A stretch of 8,913 nucleotides of DNA from Pseudomonadota bacterium. Its GTDB lineage: Bacteria > Pseudomonadota > Gammaproteobacteria > Burkholderiales > Thiobacillaceae. The stretch covers positions 1 to 8,913 of the forward strand of contig JAJYXA010000299.1 in NCBI GenBank assembly GCA_021791235.1, written 5' to 3'. Position 1 is the first letter of the stretch, and the number at the start of each line of letters is the position of its first letter. Positions 2,862 to 8,913 of this stretch are shown in pieces. The position numbers and the translations under genes are program-made. The notes below the pieces were generated by a model. It saw nothing but the letters and a program-made list of their open reading frames with translations. It did no database searches and had not been told where the DNA came from.

Positions 2862-4136
2862 TCACAGGTCTTCGTCGAGACGCCGGCCATGCCGGATATT
2901 CAGCTGTTTGAGCTTGCGGTAGAGGTGGGTACGCTCCAGGCCGGATTTGTCGGCAACCCGCGTCATGCTGCCGCCTTCCTTCTGGATCAGGTGCTCGAAA
3001 TACATGCGCTCGAAGGCGTCGCGCGCCTCGCGCAGCGGGATGTCGAGCGGGATGCCGTGGGCCACGGCGGGCGCCGCGTGCTTCATCGGGGCGAGCACGC
3101 GGTTGACGTCGACGGCGTCGATTTCGCTCGCCAGCGCGGTGACCGCCAGCGTGCGCACCACGTTGTTGAGCTGCGTCAGATTGCCCGGCCAGTCGAAGTT
3201 GCGCAGCTGGTTCAGGGCCGGCGTGGTCAGCCGCCGCACCGGGCAGACGCCCGCTTCGATCAGCTGCGCCAGCATGAAGTTGGCGATCTCGGGCACGTCT
3301 TCGCGATGCTCGCGCAAGGGCGGCACCTGGATGGCCAGGCTGGACAGACGGTAGAACAGGCGGCTGTCGAATTCGCCCGCCGCTACCATGGCGTCGAGGC
3401 TGCGGTTGCTGGCGCACACCAGACGCGCGCCGCTGCCTTCCATGCGGTCGAGCAGCAGTCCCAGGCCTTTCTGCTCCAGGCGTGCGAGCTCACAGGCATC
3501 CGGCAGATAGAGGGTGCCGTTGCCGAGCGCCTCGACAAAGCTCAGCGGGTCGGACACCAGGCGCGCGCGGTCCTTGATCTCGACCCACGGACTGCCGGGC
3601 TGATGCAGGAAATGGGCGCAGATTTCGAAGCCGCTGCCGGGCTCGCCCAACAGCAACACCGGCGCGGTGTTGCCGGCGATCTGGGTCAGGCGCTTTTTGA
3701 GTTCGAGAATCAGCGGGCTGCGGCCGAGCGCCGACAGGTCCATGCTGGGCGCGCGCCGGGGCAGGGCCACGCCGCGCTTGATCGCCTTGCCGACGGTGTC
3801 GATCAGCTTGGCCAGCGCTACCGGTTTTTCCAGGAAATCGGCCGCGCCGAGCTTGGTGGCTTCGACCGCGGTATCGATCGTGCCGTGGCCGGACATCATC
3901 ACCACCGGCATGGTGAGCTGGCCGCCCCCCGCCCATTCCTTCAATAGCGTCACGCCGTCGGTGTCGGGCATCCAGATGTCGAGCAGGACCAGATCCGGGC
4001 GACGCGCTGCGCGAAAGGCCCGCGCCGCCTCGGCGTTTTCCGCCAGATGCACGTCGTAGCCCTCGTCGGTCAGGATTTCCGACAACAACTCACGAATGCC
4101 CACTTCGTCGTCGACGACGAGAATATGCCCGCTCAC
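2862..4136 (-). CDS. ntrX: NtrX-type response regulator with degenerate AAA+ domain and Fis-type HTH
   Basis: DNA-binding response regulator, partner of the kinase encoded just upstream. Receiver domain 1-120: acidic pair D9/D10, phospho-acceptor D53 in LVLLDIWMPDTDG, switch S82, K104. Central region 135-335 is recognisably derived from a sigma-54-activator AAA+ domain (RLFYRLSSLAIQVPPLREHR at 259-278, FDWPGNL at 314-320) but is crippled: the Walker A is GEPGSGFE (164-171) with F where lysine belongs, the GAFTGA loop region is deleted, and Walker B reads GTLYLPDA instead of GTLFLDE. The C-terminal Fis-type helix-turn-helix (388-414, GGSMTRVADKSGLERTHLYR) is intact. It should therefore bind DNA as a phosphorylation-controlled repressor or activator without sigma-54 ATPase work. 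Start is GTG overlapping the ntrY stop (GTGA), with a good Shine-Dalgarno. The name ntrX rests on gene pairing and architecture; the target genes are unknown. Confidence 0.88.
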   Translation of the reverse strand: MSGHILVVDDEVGIRELLSEILTDEGYDVHLAENAEAARAFRAARRPDLVLLDIWMPDTDGVTLLKEWAGGGQLTMPVVMMSGHGTIDTAVEATKLGAADFLEKPVALAKLIDTVGKAIKRGVALPRRAPSMDLSALGRSPLILELKKRLTQIAGNTAPVLLLGEPGSGFEICAHFLHQPGSPWVEIKDRARLVSDPLSFVEALGNGTLYLPDACELARLEQKGLGLLLDRMEGSGARLVCASNRSLDAMVAAGEFDSRLFYRLSSLAIQVPPLREHREDVPEIANFMLAQLIEAGVCPVRRLTTPALNQLRNFDWPGNLTQLNNVVRTLAVTALASEIDAVDVNRVLAPMKHAAPAVAHGIPLDIPLREARDAFERMYFEHLIQKEGGSMTRVADKSGLERTHLYRKLKQLNIRHGRRLDEDL

Positions 4137-6265
4137 GTGCGCTCCCCGACTGCTGCGAAAACGGGCAGTGCGATGCGGATGGCGGCACCGCCTGATTTGA
4201 GGTTTTCGATCTGGATTTTACCGTGATGCTCTTCGACGATTTTCTTGACGATGGCCAGACCCAGACCGGTTCCCTTGGCCTTGGTGGTTGCGTATGGCTC
4301 GAACAGCCGCGTCATCAGATGCTCCGGAAACCCGGCTCCATTGTCCGTTACGGTCAAACAAACTGCATGGTTGTTGAGGCGCGTGCTGACTTCGACACAC
4401 GGTGCGGAGTGACCGGTCAGCGCATCCTGCGCATTTTGCAACAGATTATGTATCACCTGGCGCAATAATGTGGAGTCGCCCGCAATGCGCGGCAAATCGG
4501 CATCGAGGTGCAGCTGCAATCCGAGGGCCCTGGCGTCATATAACGCCAGCACTTCGCGCACCAGCGCATTGAGGTCGAGCGCATCGAGCTTGGCACGCGG
4601 CATCCGCGCATAGCCGGCAAATGCGTCGACCATGCTTTTCATGGCGGCGACCTGGCTGACGATGGTTTGCGTGGCGCGCGCCAGAAACTCGGCGTCCGCC
4701 GCTTCCAGCCGCCCATCGAGCTTGCGCGCGATGCGCTCGGCCGACAGCTGGATCGGAGTGAGCGGGTTCTTGATCTCGTGCGCCAGCCGCTGCGCCACTT
4801 CGCTCCATGCGGCATTGCGTTCGGCATCGATCAGCTTGGTCACGTCGTCGAACACCAGCACGTAGCCACGTTCCACGCCCGGCGGCAGGCGGGTGCCGCG
4901 CAGCAGCAGCGACTGGTTGCCGCCGGGGCCGGCATAATCGACCTGCTCCTGCCATTCGCCTTCGTGCTCGCCGAAGTGCGCGGCCACCGTCGCGCCGAAC
5001 GCGTGCAGGGCCTCGCCCGGCTGCCCCAGCCCGGCGAGCGGCCGGGTGTCGAGCGCAGCCGCGTCCACACCCAGAATCTGCGCCGCCGCGCTGTTCATCG
5101 TGCGCACCCGCAGGGCGTCGTCGAACACCACCACGCCGGACGACAGGTTGGCCAGCACCCGTTCGAGAAAGGCCTTAGCCTGCTCGGTCTGCTGATGGTT
5201 CCGCGCAACCTGTTCGCGCGCGTCGGAGAGCTGGCGGGTCATGCGGTTGAACGACTGGATCAGCACGCCCAGCTCGTCGCGGCTTTTCACCGACGGCATC
5301 TGCGAGAAATCGCCCTTGGCCACCGCACGGGTGCCGCGCGCCAGCGAGCGCAGCGGCGCACCGAGGCGCTCCGACAGCAGATAGGCGATGACCAGGGTCA
5401 TCAGCAAGGCCAGCATCAGCGTCAGCGTCAATGCGACGCCGTAGATACGCTTCAGCCCCAGCCGCGAGACCGCGATCTGCTGGTATTCCTGGTACGCCAG
5501 CTGCACCGCCTGCGCGTCGCGCGCCAGGCTGGCCGGCACCGGCTGCACCAGCTGCAGCACGCGCGTATCGCCGGCCAGTGAACTGGTATACACCGGCACG
5601 ATGACGTGCATGACGAGACCGCGCTCGGGCACTTCCTCGATGCGGCTGTAGGGCTGCTGCTGCCGCACCTGCCACAGCACGCTGCGCTCGGGCAGCACCG
5701 GCAGCAGGGTGCCGCGCTCGCCGCTGACATGGGCGATCACGCCGCCGCGCTCGTCGAACAGCGTCAGTTCCTGCACCGCGCTTTGCTCGCGCAGGGTGGA
5801 GAGGCTGGTGATGATCGAGCCCATGCCTTCGTCCGACAGCGTCAGCGCCATGCGCTGCGCCTTTTTTTCCAGTTCGCGCAGCAGGTCGTCGAGCGCCGCC
5901 TGGCCGAGATTGACGCCGGAGGCCAGCGCGTTGTCGACCCGCACGTCGAACCAGGTTTCGATCGAACGATTGAGAAAGAACACCGAGGCGCCATATACGA
6001 CCAGACCGGGCAGCATGGCGACGACGCCGAACATCGCCAGCAGCTTGAGCGTGAGCTTGGCGCCGAACACGCCGCGGCGGATGCGCTTTTGCAGCCACCA
6101 CAGACGCCAGCCCAGCAGCACCAGCAGCGCCACCCCGAGCACGCCGCCGCCGACGAACAGGGTAGGCAGGGTGTCGGAGAATACGGCGCTGTCGCCGCTG
6201 GCATAAAACAGCAGCGTCAGCAGCGCGATGCCCATGATGAGGGCGGCGGCGATCAGACTGCGCAT
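4133..6265 (-). CDS. ntrY: NtrY-type membrane sensor histidine kinase
   Basis: Inner-membrane sensor kinase, 710 aa from the chosen start. Two N-terminal membrane segments (about 1-21 and 35-57), a third at about 75-98, a periplasmic sensing region of about 175 residues (99-274), a fourth membrane segment (about 275-298), a HAMP linker (298-350), a PAS domain (about 360-480), and a kinase core. The phospho-accepting H496 lies in HEIKNPLTPIQLSAERI, the N box in NLLQNAQDAL (N611), the G1 box in DNGAGFP (641-647) and the G2 box in GTGLGL (665-670). All catalytic motifs look intact. The ATG at 6265 overlaps the DUF4390 stop by one nucleotide (TGATG) and gives a first residue directly before the first membrane helix; an in-frame ATG at 6343 would add 26 residues lying entirely within the DUF4390 gene and is less likely. 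There is no obvious Shine-Dalgarno, so coupling is likely. Codons after about residue 600 are less GC-biased. Confidence 0.92.
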   Translation of the reverse strand: MRSLIAAALIMGIALLTLLFYASGDSAVFSDTLPTLFVGGGVLGVALLVLLGWRLWWLQKRIRRGVFGAKLTLKLLAMFGVVAMLPGLVVYGASVFFLNRSIETWFDVRVDNALASGVNLGQAALDDLLRELEKKAQRMALTLSDEGMGSIITSLSTLREQSAVQELTLFDERGGVIAHVSGERGTLLPVLPERSVLWQVRQQQPYSRIEEVPERGLVMHVIVPVYTSSLAGDTRVLQLVQPVPASLARDAQAVQLAYQEYQQIAVSRLGLKRIYGVALTLTLMLALLMTLVIAYLLSERLGAPLRSLARGTRAVAKGDFSQMPSVKSRDELGVLIQSFNRMTRQLSDAREQVARNHQQTEQAKAFLERVLANLSSGVVVFDDALRVRTMNSAAAQILGVDAAALDTRPLAGLGQPGEALHAFGATVAAHFGEHEGEWQEQVDYAGPGGNQSLLLRGTRLPPGVERGYVLVFDDVTKLIDAERNAAWSEVAQRLAHEIKNPLTPIQLSAERIARKLDGRLEAADAEFLARATQTIVSQVAAMKSMVDAFAGYARMPRAKLDALDLNALVREVLALYDARALGLQLHLDADLPRIAGDSTLLRQVIHNLLQNAQDALTGHSAPCVEVSTRLNNHAVCLTVTDNGAGFPEHLMTRLFEPYATTKAKGTGLGLAIVKKIVEEHHGKIQIENLKSGGAAIRIALPVFAAVGERT
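4142..4147 (-). promoter_or_regulatory. Shine-Dalgarno of ntrX
   Basis: GGGGAG on the coding strand, 5 nt before the GTG start at 4136 and inside the last codons of ntrY. It supports choosing GTG as the start and is the clearest ribosome binding site in the window. Confidence 0.7.
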
Positions 6266-6888
6266 CAGGGCAGGGGCTGCGAGGAGGAGGGCGCGGCGGG
6301 CGCATCGAACGACCAGTCGAACCAGGGGGTGGCCAGTTCCCATTTGTCGCTGGTGACCGCGCCGATGGACAGCGGCTTGGGCAATTGCGCGGTGTCGAGG
6401 CGCAAACGCAGGCGGGCGTCGTAGCGCTGTCCGGGTTTGAGCGCGCCGCGCTCCAGCACCTGCCAGTCGTCGACCCGTCCCAACAGGGCCAGCGCTTCGC
6501 CCAGGGTGGCGGCGGTCCGCGTGACGTAGCCCGACTCGACGACATAGCGGCGCAGCAGCAGATGGTAGTAAATCCGCATCTTGCGCACCGGCTCGGCCAC
6601 GTCTTCGTCAAACCACCAGCTGCGCGGCCGGGTCAGTTCAAGTTCGAGCAGAAAATGCAGGTTGATGCCCTTGGTCAAGGCATCTTCCAGCGTGCGGTTG
6701 AGCACGATGTCGACATCCGCATCCAGCACATAGCCTTGCGGCGCGGCCCGGATTTCGGCCCGTTTGATCGCGCTTTTGTCATTGGCCAGCGCGCTGCCCG
6801 CCGCGCCCAGCCAGCAGCCCAGCAGCAGCGCAGCCAGCCAGCGCAATGCCGGGTCAAGTCTTGCGCAGCAGGGCGTAAAAGAAACCAT
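6265..6888 (-). CDS. DUF4390 family exported protein
   Basis: Small protein of unknown function that in betaproteobacteria usually sits between rsmB and the ntrYX genes. The N-terminus carries a signal peptide: hydrophobic WLAALLLGCWLGAAG, then SALA before ND, a plausible signal peptidase I site. The mature part contains LTKGINLHFLLELELTRPRSWW-like and LPKPLSIGAVTSDKWELATP stretches typical of the family, with alternating polar/hydrophobic strands suggesting a beta-rich periplasmic domain. The start is uncertain. ATG at 6888 (207 aa, used here) overlaps rsmB by 35 nt and gives a 16-residue leader before the hydrophobic core. TTG at 6846 (193 aa) begins 7 nt after the rsmB stop and gives the neat signal peptide MRWLAALLLG. 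Neither has a good Shine-Dalgarno. The stop overlaps the ntrY start. A role as an accessory of the NtrY periplasmic sensor is possible from position alone. Confidence 0.82.
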   Translation of the reverse strand: MVSFTPCCARLDPALRWLAALLLGCWLGAAGSALANDKSAIKRAEIRAAPQGYVLDADVDIVLNRTLEDALTKGINLHFLLELELTRPRSWWFDEDVAEPVRKMRIYYHLLLRRYVVESGYVTRTAATLGEALALLGRVDDWQVLERGALKPGQRYDARLRLRLDTAQLPKPLSIGAVTSDKWELATPWFDWSFDAPAAPSSSQPLP

Positions 6889-8239
6889 CATGCTCGGCAT
6901 CGGGCAGCAGCGGCCCGTCGGACAAAGGTTCAGGAAGCGGACAGCGCTCGGCATCGCTTGCATGGCGCGCCAGGAACGCACGCACCTGGCCTTCGTTTTC
7001 TTCATCGAATATGGAGCAGGTGGCGTAAAGCAATGTACCACCCGGGGCCAGCAGCCGCCAGAGTGCCTCCAGCATAACGGCCTGCTGCGCGGCAAATTGA
7101 GCGATGTCGTCGGGACGGCGCAGCCATTTGATGTCGGGGTTGCGGCGCACCACGCCGGAGGCGCTGCACGGCACGTCGGCCAGGATGCGGTCGAACGGCC
7201 GGCCGTCCCACCAGGCGTCGGGCCGGGCGGCGTCGCCCTCGACCAGCGTGGCAGAGAGCTGGAGCCGGTCGAGATTTTCCCGCACCCGCGCCAGCCGCGC
7301 CGCATCGGCGTCGAGCGCGGTGAGATCCACATCGCACCCGCCAGGAGTACGCCGCCAGACGTTTATGCCCTTCGGGGTGCTCGCCCCTTGGGCGGTGCGT
7401 GGTTGTTGCCGATTGATCGGCTTTACAACCACGGCCTGCCCCTTGCGGGCGGTCTTGGCGCAGGCGCGCTCGAGAATATGGCCGGTCTTGCCGCCGGGCG
7501 CGGCGCAGGCATCCAGGACTCGCTCGCCCGGCTGCGCATCGAGCAGGCGCGCCGCCCACTGCGCGCCGGCATCCTGCACCGACACGTCGCCCCGGTCGAA
7601 GCCGGGCAGCGTGTGCACCGGCACCGCCTTGTCGAGGGTGACGGCGTCCGGGCCGGTCTGGTGCGCGGGCAGCCCGGCCTCGTTCAGGCGCCGCAGATAA
7701 CCCGCGACGTCGCCGTGGCGGCGATTGACGCGCAGGGTGAACGGCGGGTGCAGCAGGCTGGCTTCGAGGATGCCTTGCCAATGGTGCGGGTGTTCGGCTT
7801 GCAGTTTGGCGATCCACCAGTCGGGGTGCGACCAGCGTGCGGACGGCAGTTCGGCCGCGATTTTTTCCAGTTCGGCGCGGCGGCGCTGGAAGTTGCGCAG
7901 CACCGCGTTGGTGAGCCCGCGCCGCCAGCCCGGTCCCGCCGCGGTGACGGCGTTGTGCACCACGGCGTGCGCCGGCGCGCGGGTGTAGGCCAGCTGATAC
8001 AAGGCCACGCGCAGCAGCCGGCCGAGTTCGGGATCGGTCAGCGGGCGTTCCAGCAGCGCCGCCAGCCAGGCGTCCAGGCGCCCCAGCTGGCGCAGGCTGC
8101 CGTACACGATGTCCTGCAGGGCGCCGCGCTCGCCCGGCGTTTGCAACTGCTGCAGGATGCGGGGCAGCACCTGATGCAGCGCCGCGCCGGCGAGCACCTC
8201 TTCCAGCGCGCCGGCGGCCAGTTTTTGCAGCTTACGCAT
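6854..8239 (-). CDS. rsmB: RsmB, 16S rRNA m5C967 methyltransferase, carrying a 42-codon in-frame insertion
   Basis: SAM-dependent methyltransferase that makes m5C967 in 16S rRNA. The N-terminal NusB-like helical domain (about 1-140) binds RNA; the catalytic NOL1/NOP2/Sun domain follows. Motif I is DACAAPGGKT (243-252), the acidic SAM-ribose residue is D310 in LTALD, motif IV is DVPCSASG with C358, and the nucleophile motif is ATCS with C408. The protein has 461 aa against about 429 in E. coli. The excess is residues 261-302, between HILERAC and DVDLTALD: basic, low in hydrophobics, with less GC-biased codons (GTT, GTA, AAT, CAA, ATA, CGT, ACT, CCT). Removing it leaves 8 residues between HILE and ALD, as in E. 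coli. No stop or frameshift is introduced and all catalytic residues remain, so the gene is probably functional with a surface loop added. The ATG overlaps the end of fmt by 8 nt. Confidence 0.95.
   Translation of the reverse strand: MRKLQKLAAGALEEVLAGAALHQVLPRILQQLQTPGERGALQDIVYGSLRQLGRLDAWLAALLERPLTDPELGRLLRVALYQLAYTRAPAHAVVHNAVTAAGPGWRRGLTNAVLRNFQRRRAELEKIAAELPSARWSHPDWWIAKLQAEHPHHWQGILEASLLHPPFTLRVNRRHGDVAGYLRRLNEAGLPAHQTGPDAVTLDKAVPVHTLPGFDRGDVSVQDAGAQWAARLLDAQPGERVLDACAAPGGKTGHILERACAKTARKGQAVVVKPINRQQPRTAQGASTPKGINVWRRTPGGCDVDLTALDADAARLARVRENLDRLQLSATLVEGDAARPDAWWDGRPFDRILADVPCSASGVVRRNPDIKWLRRPDDIAQFAAQQAVMLEALWRLLAPGGTLLYATCSIFDEENEGQVRAFLARHASDAERCPLPEPLSDGPLLPDAEHDGFFYALLRKT
7333..7462 (-). 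mobile_element. Small palindromic element inserted in-frame in rsmB, with 4-nt target duplication
   Basis: A 122-nt segment (7337-7458) is bounded by TGCG on the coding strand at 7459-7462 and again at 7333-7336. Unit plus one TGCG is 126 nt, exactly 42 codons, which keeps rsmB in frame. The core is a strong hairpin (7398-7433). A second inverted repeat, gcaccc (7334-7339) with gggtgc (7375-7380), lies near one end, and a near-direct repeat gccccttgggcggt / gccccttgcgggcggt (7383-7396, 7438-7453) flanks the core. The ends share a weak inverted motif CGCCA(A/G)GA. There is no transposase, so it would be non-autonomous. Four of its six frames are open. The closest conceptual match I know is Rickettsia palindromic elements, which also sit in-frame inside genes; I do not recognise this family. 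Confidence 0.75.
7398..7433. repeat. Core palindrome of the rsmB insertion
   Basis: Inverted repeat with a 9-bp outer stem (cgtggttgt at 7398-7406 with acaaccacg at 7425-7433), an asymmetric internal loop (t against ttt), and a 6-bp inner stem (gccgat at 7408-7413 with atcggc at 7416-7421) around a 2-nt centre. It can form in DNA or in the rsmB mRNA. Confidence 0.9.
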
Positions 8240-8913
8240 GAGGGGGCACGCTCCGGTTGGCCTTCCGGTTCATGTAGCGGCCGAGACGCGTGCCCGCTGC
8301 CAGCGGCCGTCCGGCGAGAAACGCCGCAGCGAGCATCCGTTTGCCGCCCGCCGGCTGGACCTCCTGCAAGGCGAGCGCACCTTTGCCGCAGGCGACGACC
8401 AGTTGCTCCGCGTCGGCGCGCAGCACCATGCCCGGCACATACGATCTTTCACGCGCTTCAGCCCGTAGAAAGTCGGCGTCCTTTAGGGCGCCGGTCCCGC
8501 CCACCGCCTGCGCGGACCAGATTTTCAGCGGTGCGCCGTCCAGCAGCGTCCACGCGCCGGGCGTCGGATTGTAGGCGCGCACCGCGCGCGCCAGCGCCTC
8601 GGCGGGCTGGCGCCAGTCCAGTTGCGCCTCCTCCTTGCTGAGTTTGGCGGCATAGGTGGCCTGGCTGTCGTCCTGCGCCACCGGCACCAGCGTGGCGATA
8701 TTCGCCAGCGCCGCCACGATGGCGGCCGCGCCCGCTGCCGCCAGGGCGTCGTGCAGGCTGGCCGCGGTGTCGCTGTCGCCGATCGGCACGACGGTTTTTG
8801 CAAGCATCGCCCCGGTGTCGAGCCCGGCATCCATCCGCATGATGGTGATGCCGGTTTCCGTGTCGCCCGCCAGGATCGCCCGCTGGATCGGCGCCGCCCC
8901 GCGCCAGCGCGGC
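8232..8913 (-). CDS. fmt: Fmt, methionyl-tRNA formyltransferase (5' part beyond window)
   Basis: Transfers a formyl group from 10-formyl-THF to initiator Met-tRNA. The window shows 226 C-terminal residues; about the first 120 are outside, including the N-x-H-P active-site segment. The visible part opens with PRWRGAAPIQRAILAGD and continues with the conserved GITIMRMDAGLDTGAML, whose Asp in GLDTG matches the catalytic aspartate (D144 in E. coli). The C-terminal OB-fold domain includes AKLSKEEAQLDW, RAYNPTPGAW, and LALQEVQPAGGKRM. Two oddities: the stretch between KIW and PGMVL is about 15 residues longer than in E. coli and holds a palindrome; and about 15 residues (RYMNRKANRSVPPHA) follow the usual end of the family, running into the rsmB start. 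The stop TAA is at 8232-8234. Confidence 0.96.
   Translation of the reverse strand, partial: PRWRGAAPIQRAILAGDTETGITIMRMDAGLDTGAMLAKTVVPIGDSDTAASLHDALAAAGAAAIVAALANIATLVPVAQDDSQATYAAKLSKEEAQLDWRQPAEALARAVRAYNPTPGAWTLLDGAPLKIWSAQAVGGTGALKDADFLRAEARERSYVPGMVLRADAEQLVVACGKGALALQEVQPAGGKRMLAAAFLAGRPLAAGTRLGRYMNRKANRSVPPHA
8446..8472. repeat. 27-nt imperfect palindrome inside fmt
   Basis: On the coding strand CTTTC pairs with GAAAG, then after a one-base bulge ACG with CGT, then after a G-G mismatch GCT with AGC around a GA centre: 11 pairs in 27 nt. It lies in the apparently expanded loop of Fmt and the local codons (CTA, TTT, CTA, GCT, CGT, AGA, TAT) differ from the GC-rich flanks. I cannot define ends or a target duplication. 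Confidence 0.6.

Follow-up and report, generated by a model that had tools for sequence, protein, structure and literature searches.

A putative mobile hairpin repeat of Thiobacillus, found in frame in rsmB and other genes

The rsmB gene in the window (the whole 8,913-nt stretch of DNA analyzed here) carries an in-frame insert that, judged by comparison with related sequences, is a copy of a dispersed family: a 54-nt core in which a 57-nt palindromic repeat (pal) and an 18-nt cassette are nested. An initial annotation of this DNA had described one unnamed palindromic element; we find two nested repeats plus the cassette. The same annotation proposed a non-autonomous mobile repeat that is translated in frame in a betaproteobacterium and behaves like the Rickettsia palindromic elements (RPEs), and the dispersed copies and the filled and empty sites described below argue for that proposal. 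We consider it probable that the core is a non-autonomous, REP-like hairpin element of Thiobacillus, moved by an IS200/IS605/RAYT-like enzyme and filtered by selection on the host protein. In-frame selfish repeats are best known from Rickettsia, and reduced genomes offer a ready explanation for them. Here a free-living genus of sulfur oxidizers shows a Rickettsia-like habit at dozens of sites, and its related genomes offer empty sites, full inserts, tandem copies, nested composites, and remnants. This makes two subjects testable: the tolerance and later use of inserted DNA by proteins, and the movement of palindromes without target duplication.

The composite insert in rsmB

The rsmB gene of the window encodes 16S rRNA (cytosine-967-C5)-methyltransferase (6854-8239, minus strand) and is an intact 461-aa ORF with the insert inside it. 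The ORF passes the NCBIfam RsmB cut-off in two stretches, the better of which ends at residue 260. Its nearest named homologues among the matches listed are Thiobacillus proteins, mostly of 418 aa, and by this measure the window RsmB is of the Thiobacillus type. By eye, the neighboring ORFs (1389-2762, 2862-4136, 4133-6343, and 8232-8840) resemble trkA, an ntrX/ntrY-type pair, and fmt. The palindrome-bearing segment that had been placed at 7333-7462, in frame and stop-free within rsmB, is borne out by the intact ORF and by the fold of 7320-7475, which only 1 of 200 dinucleotide shuffles beat (z -3.0). Its size had been given as 42 codons or 126 nt; RsmB normally has 418 aa, and relative to that form the window gene carries a net 43 extra codons, or 129 nt (7334-7462).

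Aligning RsmB with relatives, as the annotation had proposed, yielded the empty site. Of 8000 homologues scored, 120 were listed; at the window's site, 109 of these lack an insert, three have 18 aa (P0001, P0002, and P0019), six have five residues, and two have a single residue. The annotation had also stated that deletion of the segment with one TGCG joins HILERAC to DVDLTALD. An empty site does exist, but nearly all insert-free homologues among those listed read HILERA^DVDL; HILERAC^DVEL was found once, in P0110, where it may be a deletion footprint. The insert is thus not general among relatives and other copies of it exist, so neither of the two outcomes that had been named as contrary to a mobile element occurred. 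No second close RsmB was found in four carriers. At the same rsmB site, a five-residue insert of the ASNSS type is seen in P0032, P0035, P0089, P0109, P0114, P0120, and L009; it may be an eroded element or an unrelated indel.

The window insert contains the 18-residue form and two extra blocks of 19 and 6 residues. It runs from TGC to TGC on the minus strand, with limits defined by the 418-aa homologues and the 18-aa form at the same site. First come the left 15 nt of the core (TGCGCCAAGACCGCC, 7448-7462), recognized from the core alignment and from L192 at the same rsmB site. Pal (7391-7447) follows inside the loop of core hairpin 1; its junction recurs in other composites, and its boundary in the window is ambiguous by 5 nt, with GGCGG on either side. 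The middle 11 nt of the core (7380-7390), placed by comparison with the core alignment, are followed by the 18-nt cassette (CACCCCGAAGGGCATAAA, 7362-7379), and the right 28 nt of the core (7334-7361) close the element with hairpin 2, which covaries, and the terminal TGC.

These parts recur elsewhere. The cassette is also present in L107, L146, L197, and L203, twice in L104, and together with pal in L310. A search for further copies in related genomes, likewise suggested at the outset, found relatives of the window copy, the closest examined being the composite L310, with the same parts in the same order and 117 of 129 positions identical. Composites of core and pal (111 nt) share one junction in L102/L152, L160, L206, and L322. 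The 129-nt form, which has the 18-nt cassette as well, is that of the window and L310, and a different 57-nt cassette is found in L106 and L217. The window composite would have formed from a core already in rsmB, as in P0001, P0002, and P0019, by gaining pal and the 18-nt cassette, whether through nested insertion or through conversion from a composite copy.

What would such an insert do to the protein? In the predicted RsmB structure, residues 266-300 have pLDDT <50 and are flanked by a helix (251-267) and a strand (304-310), and the remainder is mostly confident. RsmB is therefore predicted to fold normally, with a disordered loop made by the insert. The core also occupies a second rsmB site, with a copy in L009 and remnants in L007 and L012; among the 120 listed homologues, this site holds four full and three short forms.

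Structure and distribution of the core

The core was defined by aligning 23 copies: it is 54 nt (18 codons) long, TGCGCCAAGACCGCCCGCAGGGCGAGYGTCTGGCGGCGTACCCCTTGCGGGTGC, and has two hairpins in the order TGC, hairpin 1, hairpin 2, TGC. Both sides had changed in 5 of the 18 pairs, against 1.3 ± 0.8 in shuffles (none of 500 as high), and the signal was lost when the pairing partners were slid. The covariance model made from this alignment, R1, misses the window copy because the nested blocks split its core; that copy is tied to the family by BLAST, by the composite L310, and by L192, in which the short form occupies this rsmB site.

The first further copies in Thiobacillus came from the second rsmB site (L009) and from dprA (L003 and L013). 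BLAST matches to the element, some of them partial, were present in 15 of 18 genomes. With at most 96 candidates scored per genome, the covariance model found a match of ≥50 bits in 35 of 56 genus genomes and matches at E ≤ 1e-3 in 44 of 56, nine of the latter having only weak ones (best E 4e-6 or worse). The best matches reach E 1e-15 per genome, with up to 16 matches in one genome. These figures bear on the proposal that a lineage-specific RsmB loop grew by replication slippage and that its resemblance to other loci reflects GC-rich low complexity. The sequence is indeed GC-rich, and tandem copies exist in L088, L129, and L161. Matches of such strength, together with an identical 54-nt unit, identical ends, and covarying hairpins in dozens of unrelated genes and in five reading frames, speak against slippage, which by sequence comparison appears already refuted by the dispersed copies; we give it next to no chance.

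Loci were read from six of the nine genomes with weak matches. Four of the six (G024, G025, G053, and G056) carry a sibling repeat with hairpin 2 in common, and the matches in the other two, G020 and G055, resemble cores that have diverged. The nine also include G007, G029, and G052, and an rsmB remnant is present in G007. The sibling repeats share hairpin 2 (GTACCCCTTGCGGGTGC) and differ in the first hairpin, for example CTGCGGAAGGGTCGCCGC.CAGCGGCGGGG; they were seen in L208, L210-L214, and L216-L218 (low-scoring R1 matches) and in L095 (207-269). Possibly the family consists of various hairpins attached to a shared 3' end.

An order-wide search with 13 candidates scored per genome gave E ≤ 1e-6 in 8 of 399 genomes, three of them from the genus set. 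Ten loci from the five others mostly place the core within compound repeats that no convincing gene encloses, L360 and L366 being ambiguous. In genomes outside the genus set, the core forms part of a longer repeat that seems to be mostly intergenic and whose flanks resemble AGGGTCGCTGCC and AGCAGCGGGG (L358, L359, L361, L362, L366, L367, L369, and L373; also L069 at 5313). This larger repeat outside the genus set may be the ancestral form of the core. Rfam returned no match at gathering scores, plasmid sequences gave no match, and viral contigs had none to one exact 34-nt pattern. Seven phage records contained one and the same 30-nt match (90%, E 0.1), which we took as chance.

Within the genus, we count at least 94 copies drawn from the best-listed places of the search, with eleven loci that repeat others left out: the 96 model matches of ≥50 bits, less the duplicates L098 and L102 and the tandem unit L161:2109, plus the tandem unit of L088. 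They fall into 33 sites, a hand merge of 44 clusters. Twenty-nine of the 33 are in frame in genes; the rho leader, L096, and L103 lie outside, and L087 is unresolved. At one copy per site, the element is 54 nt long in 32 of 33.

Copy lengths follow the codon. Of 123 pattern matches, 106 were cleanly anchored, and every one of these has a length divisible by three: 54 (86 copies), 57 (2), 69, 72 (5), 75, 90, 111 (7), 129 (2), and 165 nt. The other 17 were left out as mis-anchored (nine not divisible by three and eight divisible). The pattern is blind to indels inside its end anchors, and covariance-model spans are the fairer figure: of the 96 matches of ≥50 bits, 94 have spans congruent to 62 modulo 3. 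The exceptions are L103, which at 52 nt lacks 2 nt and lies in no long ORF, and L206, a composite that was aligned in part. Selection on gene-resident copies alone could produce this length rule.

Pal, the palindrome that stands out in the window, has a different distribution. It matches in 55 of 56 genus genomes. The 30 loci fetched for it contain 37 copies, and for most of these codon-position GC, the sole criterion applied, gave no sign of a convincing surrounding ORF. Two of the 37 measure 53 nt rather than 54 nt.

Target sites, probable mode of movement, and relation to known repeats

Empty-site DNA was compared at 30 loci each for dprA, coaBC, and fructosamine kinase (of 58, 59, and 60 listed places, respectively). 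At dprA, 16 loci have an insert or remnant, 13 have none, and one is unresolved; the corresponding figures are 4, 23, and 3 for coaBC and 2, 27, and 1 for fructosamine kinase, where two empty sites were judged by eye. All inserts in these genes have lengths divisible by three, and the basic insert is exactly 54 nt. Comparison of filled with empty sites revealed no target-site duplication at rsmB sites 1 and 2, dprA, coaBC, or fructosamine kinase. In the element's sense, coaBC reads GGACC^element^GGCGCC when filled and GGGCC^GGCGCC when empty. The TGCG duplication once read around the rsmB insert does not survive this comparison: the TGC at both ends is the element's own. A MITE of a DDE transposon does not fit either, given the absence of duplication at these five sites and of terminal inverted repeats in the core.

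The left flank is nearly fixed. Of 33 sites, each represented by one copy, 32 have C at -1 and 28 have G at -4; automatic grouping gives 34 and 29 of 35. This G-N-N-C target resembles the element's own right end, GGGTGC. In an exploratory tabulation of right end against left flank, G at -3 accompanies a G end in 4 of 5 groups and a T end in 8 of 30. Head-to-tail tandem arrays occur in aat (L088), coaBC (L129), and L161, as would be expected if the element's right end could itself serve as a target.

Transposition of the IS200/IS605 type is characterized by subterminal hairpins, a fixed left target, no target duplication, and an element end resembling the target. The core shares the fixed short left target, the lack of duplication, and hairpins near both ends; it differs in that no transposase gene could be linked to it in the loci fetched. 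We favor single-strand transposition because of the absent duplication, the likeness of left target and right end, the hairpins at both ends, and the tandem growth. In this model, the core hairpins would be recognized by a trans-acting single-strand transposase of IS200/IS605/RAYT type, which would paste the element behind GNNC without duplication.

No enzyme could be tied to the core, which weighs against this mechanism. Of 18 genomes, 13 contain PF01797 (Y1_Tnp), as do 8 of 10 genomes selected for bearing copies, four genomes being common to both sets; the five of 18 in which it was not detected are drafts, and all five have element matches. Among 37 fetched Y1_Tnp loci, again from draft genomes, none had a core copy nearby and two had pal copies. 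Two tests for an association with RAYT showed none for the core; the one 20-nt match, in L123, is a pal copy. Pal copies lie within about 600 bases of Y1 transposase genes in L347 (919-1348, G021) and L123 (2007-2064, G002), once as an inverted pair; by a rough estimate, pal density may place pal beside two RAYT loci by chance.

Alternatively, the core might spread as an excised circle that enters new sites through site-specific or homology-driven recombination at a short sequence common to both partners, such as GGNGC^TGC, with no IS200/IS605-like enzyme involved. The right flank is biased too (T in 17, G in 18, and C in 19 of 33 at +1 to +3), a feature that a pure left-target model does not predict and that is expected from a circle recombining at a short shared core; both flanks then resemble the element junction GGGTGC^TGCG. 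Composites with identical junctions could also arise by conversion between copies. Several targets, however, have no TGC on the right, among them coaBC (^GGCGCC), rsmB site 1 (^GACG or GATG), and hrpA (^TTTT), and we regard the circle as rather unlikely, well behind transposition by a single-strand enzyme.

How does the core compare with repeats already described? Thauera and Neisseria are betaproteobacteria. In-frame palindromic repeats in betaproteobacteria are already in print (Thauera REPs, PMC3733652; the 107-bp Correia element of Neisseria, PMC2229807), and in-frame insertions of RPE, ERIC, or Correia elements have been described (Delihas 2007, PMC2229807; a 2024 MITE review, PMC10969869). 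RPEs are 105-146 bp long with 12-bp terminal inverted repeats, and the RPE host enzyme gmk stays active with its insert (PMC2229807). Like RPEs, the core is a small palindromic repeat lying in frame in conserved, unrelated genes, as Pfam and the empty sites indicate. Compared by description, it differs in its 54-nt length, its lack of target duplication, and its sulfur-oxidizer genus; moreover, its ends, TGCGCC and GGGTGC, are not mutual inverted repeats, so terminal inverted repeats of the RPE type (~12 bp) are absent.

Di Nocera et al. (2013, PMC3733652) report intragenic REPs from several species, including Thauera, some of them in replication or repair genes; most GTAG/CGTC REPs described there are intergenic, with the GTAG or CGTC tag left unpaired. 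RAYT transposases are presumed there to mobilize GTAG REPs, and RPE-6 and RPE-4 are equated with CGTC REPs; Thiobacillus is not mentioned in the paper. The core resembles these REPs in its short hairpins, tandem clusters, and in-frame gene copies, whereas it lies mostly in genes (the 29 of 33 sites), has no RAYT neighbor in the loci fetched, and has no unpaired tag: GTAG is absent from its consensus, and its GTAC and YGTC sit in covarying stems. Correia elements include a 107-bp class used in frame in genes and a related intergenic class, a division comparable to that between core and pal; they have terminal inverted repeats and target duplication (PMC2229807), both of which the core lacks. 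In behavior, the core is thus akin to RPEs and to intragenic REPs, yet for each of the two a defining feature is absent. Among open-licence papers, covered by titles and abstract openings, searches brought up no account of the Thiobacillus family, its duplication-free 54-nt unit, or its gene-centered distribution.

Host genes, reading frames, and probable decay

The hosts include rsmB (two sites), dprA, coaBC, coaE, hrpA, aat, a relA/spoT-type gene, and ribonucleotide reductase. In a Pfam scan of 30 element-bearing ORFs covering 30 sites, 29 matched. Host gene names come from Pfam and recall (the lptC-like site has no Pfam match), and hrpA, tsaB, addB, and the kinase of L130 are names that we presume for Pfam-matched ORFs. 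Twelve sites lie within a single Pfam domain: RsmB site 1, HrpA twice, Aat, the RelA/SpoT HD domain, fructosamine kinase, a P-type ATPase, TamB, MFS, TsaB, CoaE (from a split match), and ribonucleotide reductase. Five lie between domains (RsmB site 2, HrpA, DprA, CoaBC, and an FtsX-type permease). Twelve more are inside the ORF but beyond the matched domain, including AroE (C-terminus) and SNase-like and trypsin-like proteins (near the signal peptide); sites near protein ends may depend on start-codon choice. The rho site is in the leader ahead of the gene, and L096 and L103 have no fitting ORF.

A unit of 18 codons that is often stop-free would leave the host protein readable after many insertions, and selection would keep those landing in loops, linkers, and ends. 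The annotation went further and held the sequence to be tuned to be stop-free. The core consensus is stop-free in all six frames, but dinucleotide shuffling of it gives the same outcome in 10.6% of cases. Simulated substitution puts a stop in at least one frame of 32.9 ± 4.4 of 86 copies; the observed number is 28. Six-frame openness is within chance on both counts, and we rejected it as a sign of tuning. Pal has stops in two of six frames.

Five of the six core reading frames are in use, with hand-assigned counts of 1, 13, 2, 10, 0, and 3 over 29 gene sites. From the target phase in 19 host genes, a more even use of frames would be expected (p about 0.0002-0.0007 under three target definitions). 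The Pro/Gly/Ala frame is in excess, and the frame of the window copy was seen at only one site. A peptide-level filter on insertions is likely because frame use departs from the target-phase prediction.

The same departure could be read as a sign of domestication, in which the element is selected for a function of its encoded peptide, such as an RNA-binding loop or a linker, and is not tolerated selfish DNA. Inserts of ≥48 nt are kept in 12 of 30 dprA loci, which agrees with that reading. Yet five different peptides serve in unrelated proteins, the window's frame is a rarity, four of 30 dprA loci retain remnants of 9 or 30 nt only, and a filter against harmful peptides accounts equally well for the frame bias. 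We therefore hold domestication to be very improbable.

In dprA, there are also strongly diverged inserts of 57 or 48 nt (L231, L232, and L234). We read the short and the diverged dprA inserts as probable erosion in frame; on the reading that we prefer, a tolerated mobile element, a kept insert would decay in this way into an ordinary linker. A tentative and somewhat doubtful extension is that the core is a codon-periodic transposable element: core (54 nt) and cassettes (18 and 57 nt) are all multiples of three, found mainly in genes and without duplication, and their frame-preserving jumps would be a source of linkers of 18 to 43 residues that erode in frame. In that case, the genus would offer a natural series that runs from recent insertions to relic linkers.

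Insertion also affects protein ends. One copy forms the C-terminus of AroE just ahead of a transglycosylase gene (L170, L173, L177, L181, and L195, with L091 and L176); it is present in several genomes, and the repeat therefore supplies the last codons of a gene. At the other end, the "-" frame of the element gives TLALRAVLAL beside the hydrophobic part of apparent signal peptides in the SNase-like and trypsin-like proteins (L097, L146, L090, and L153).
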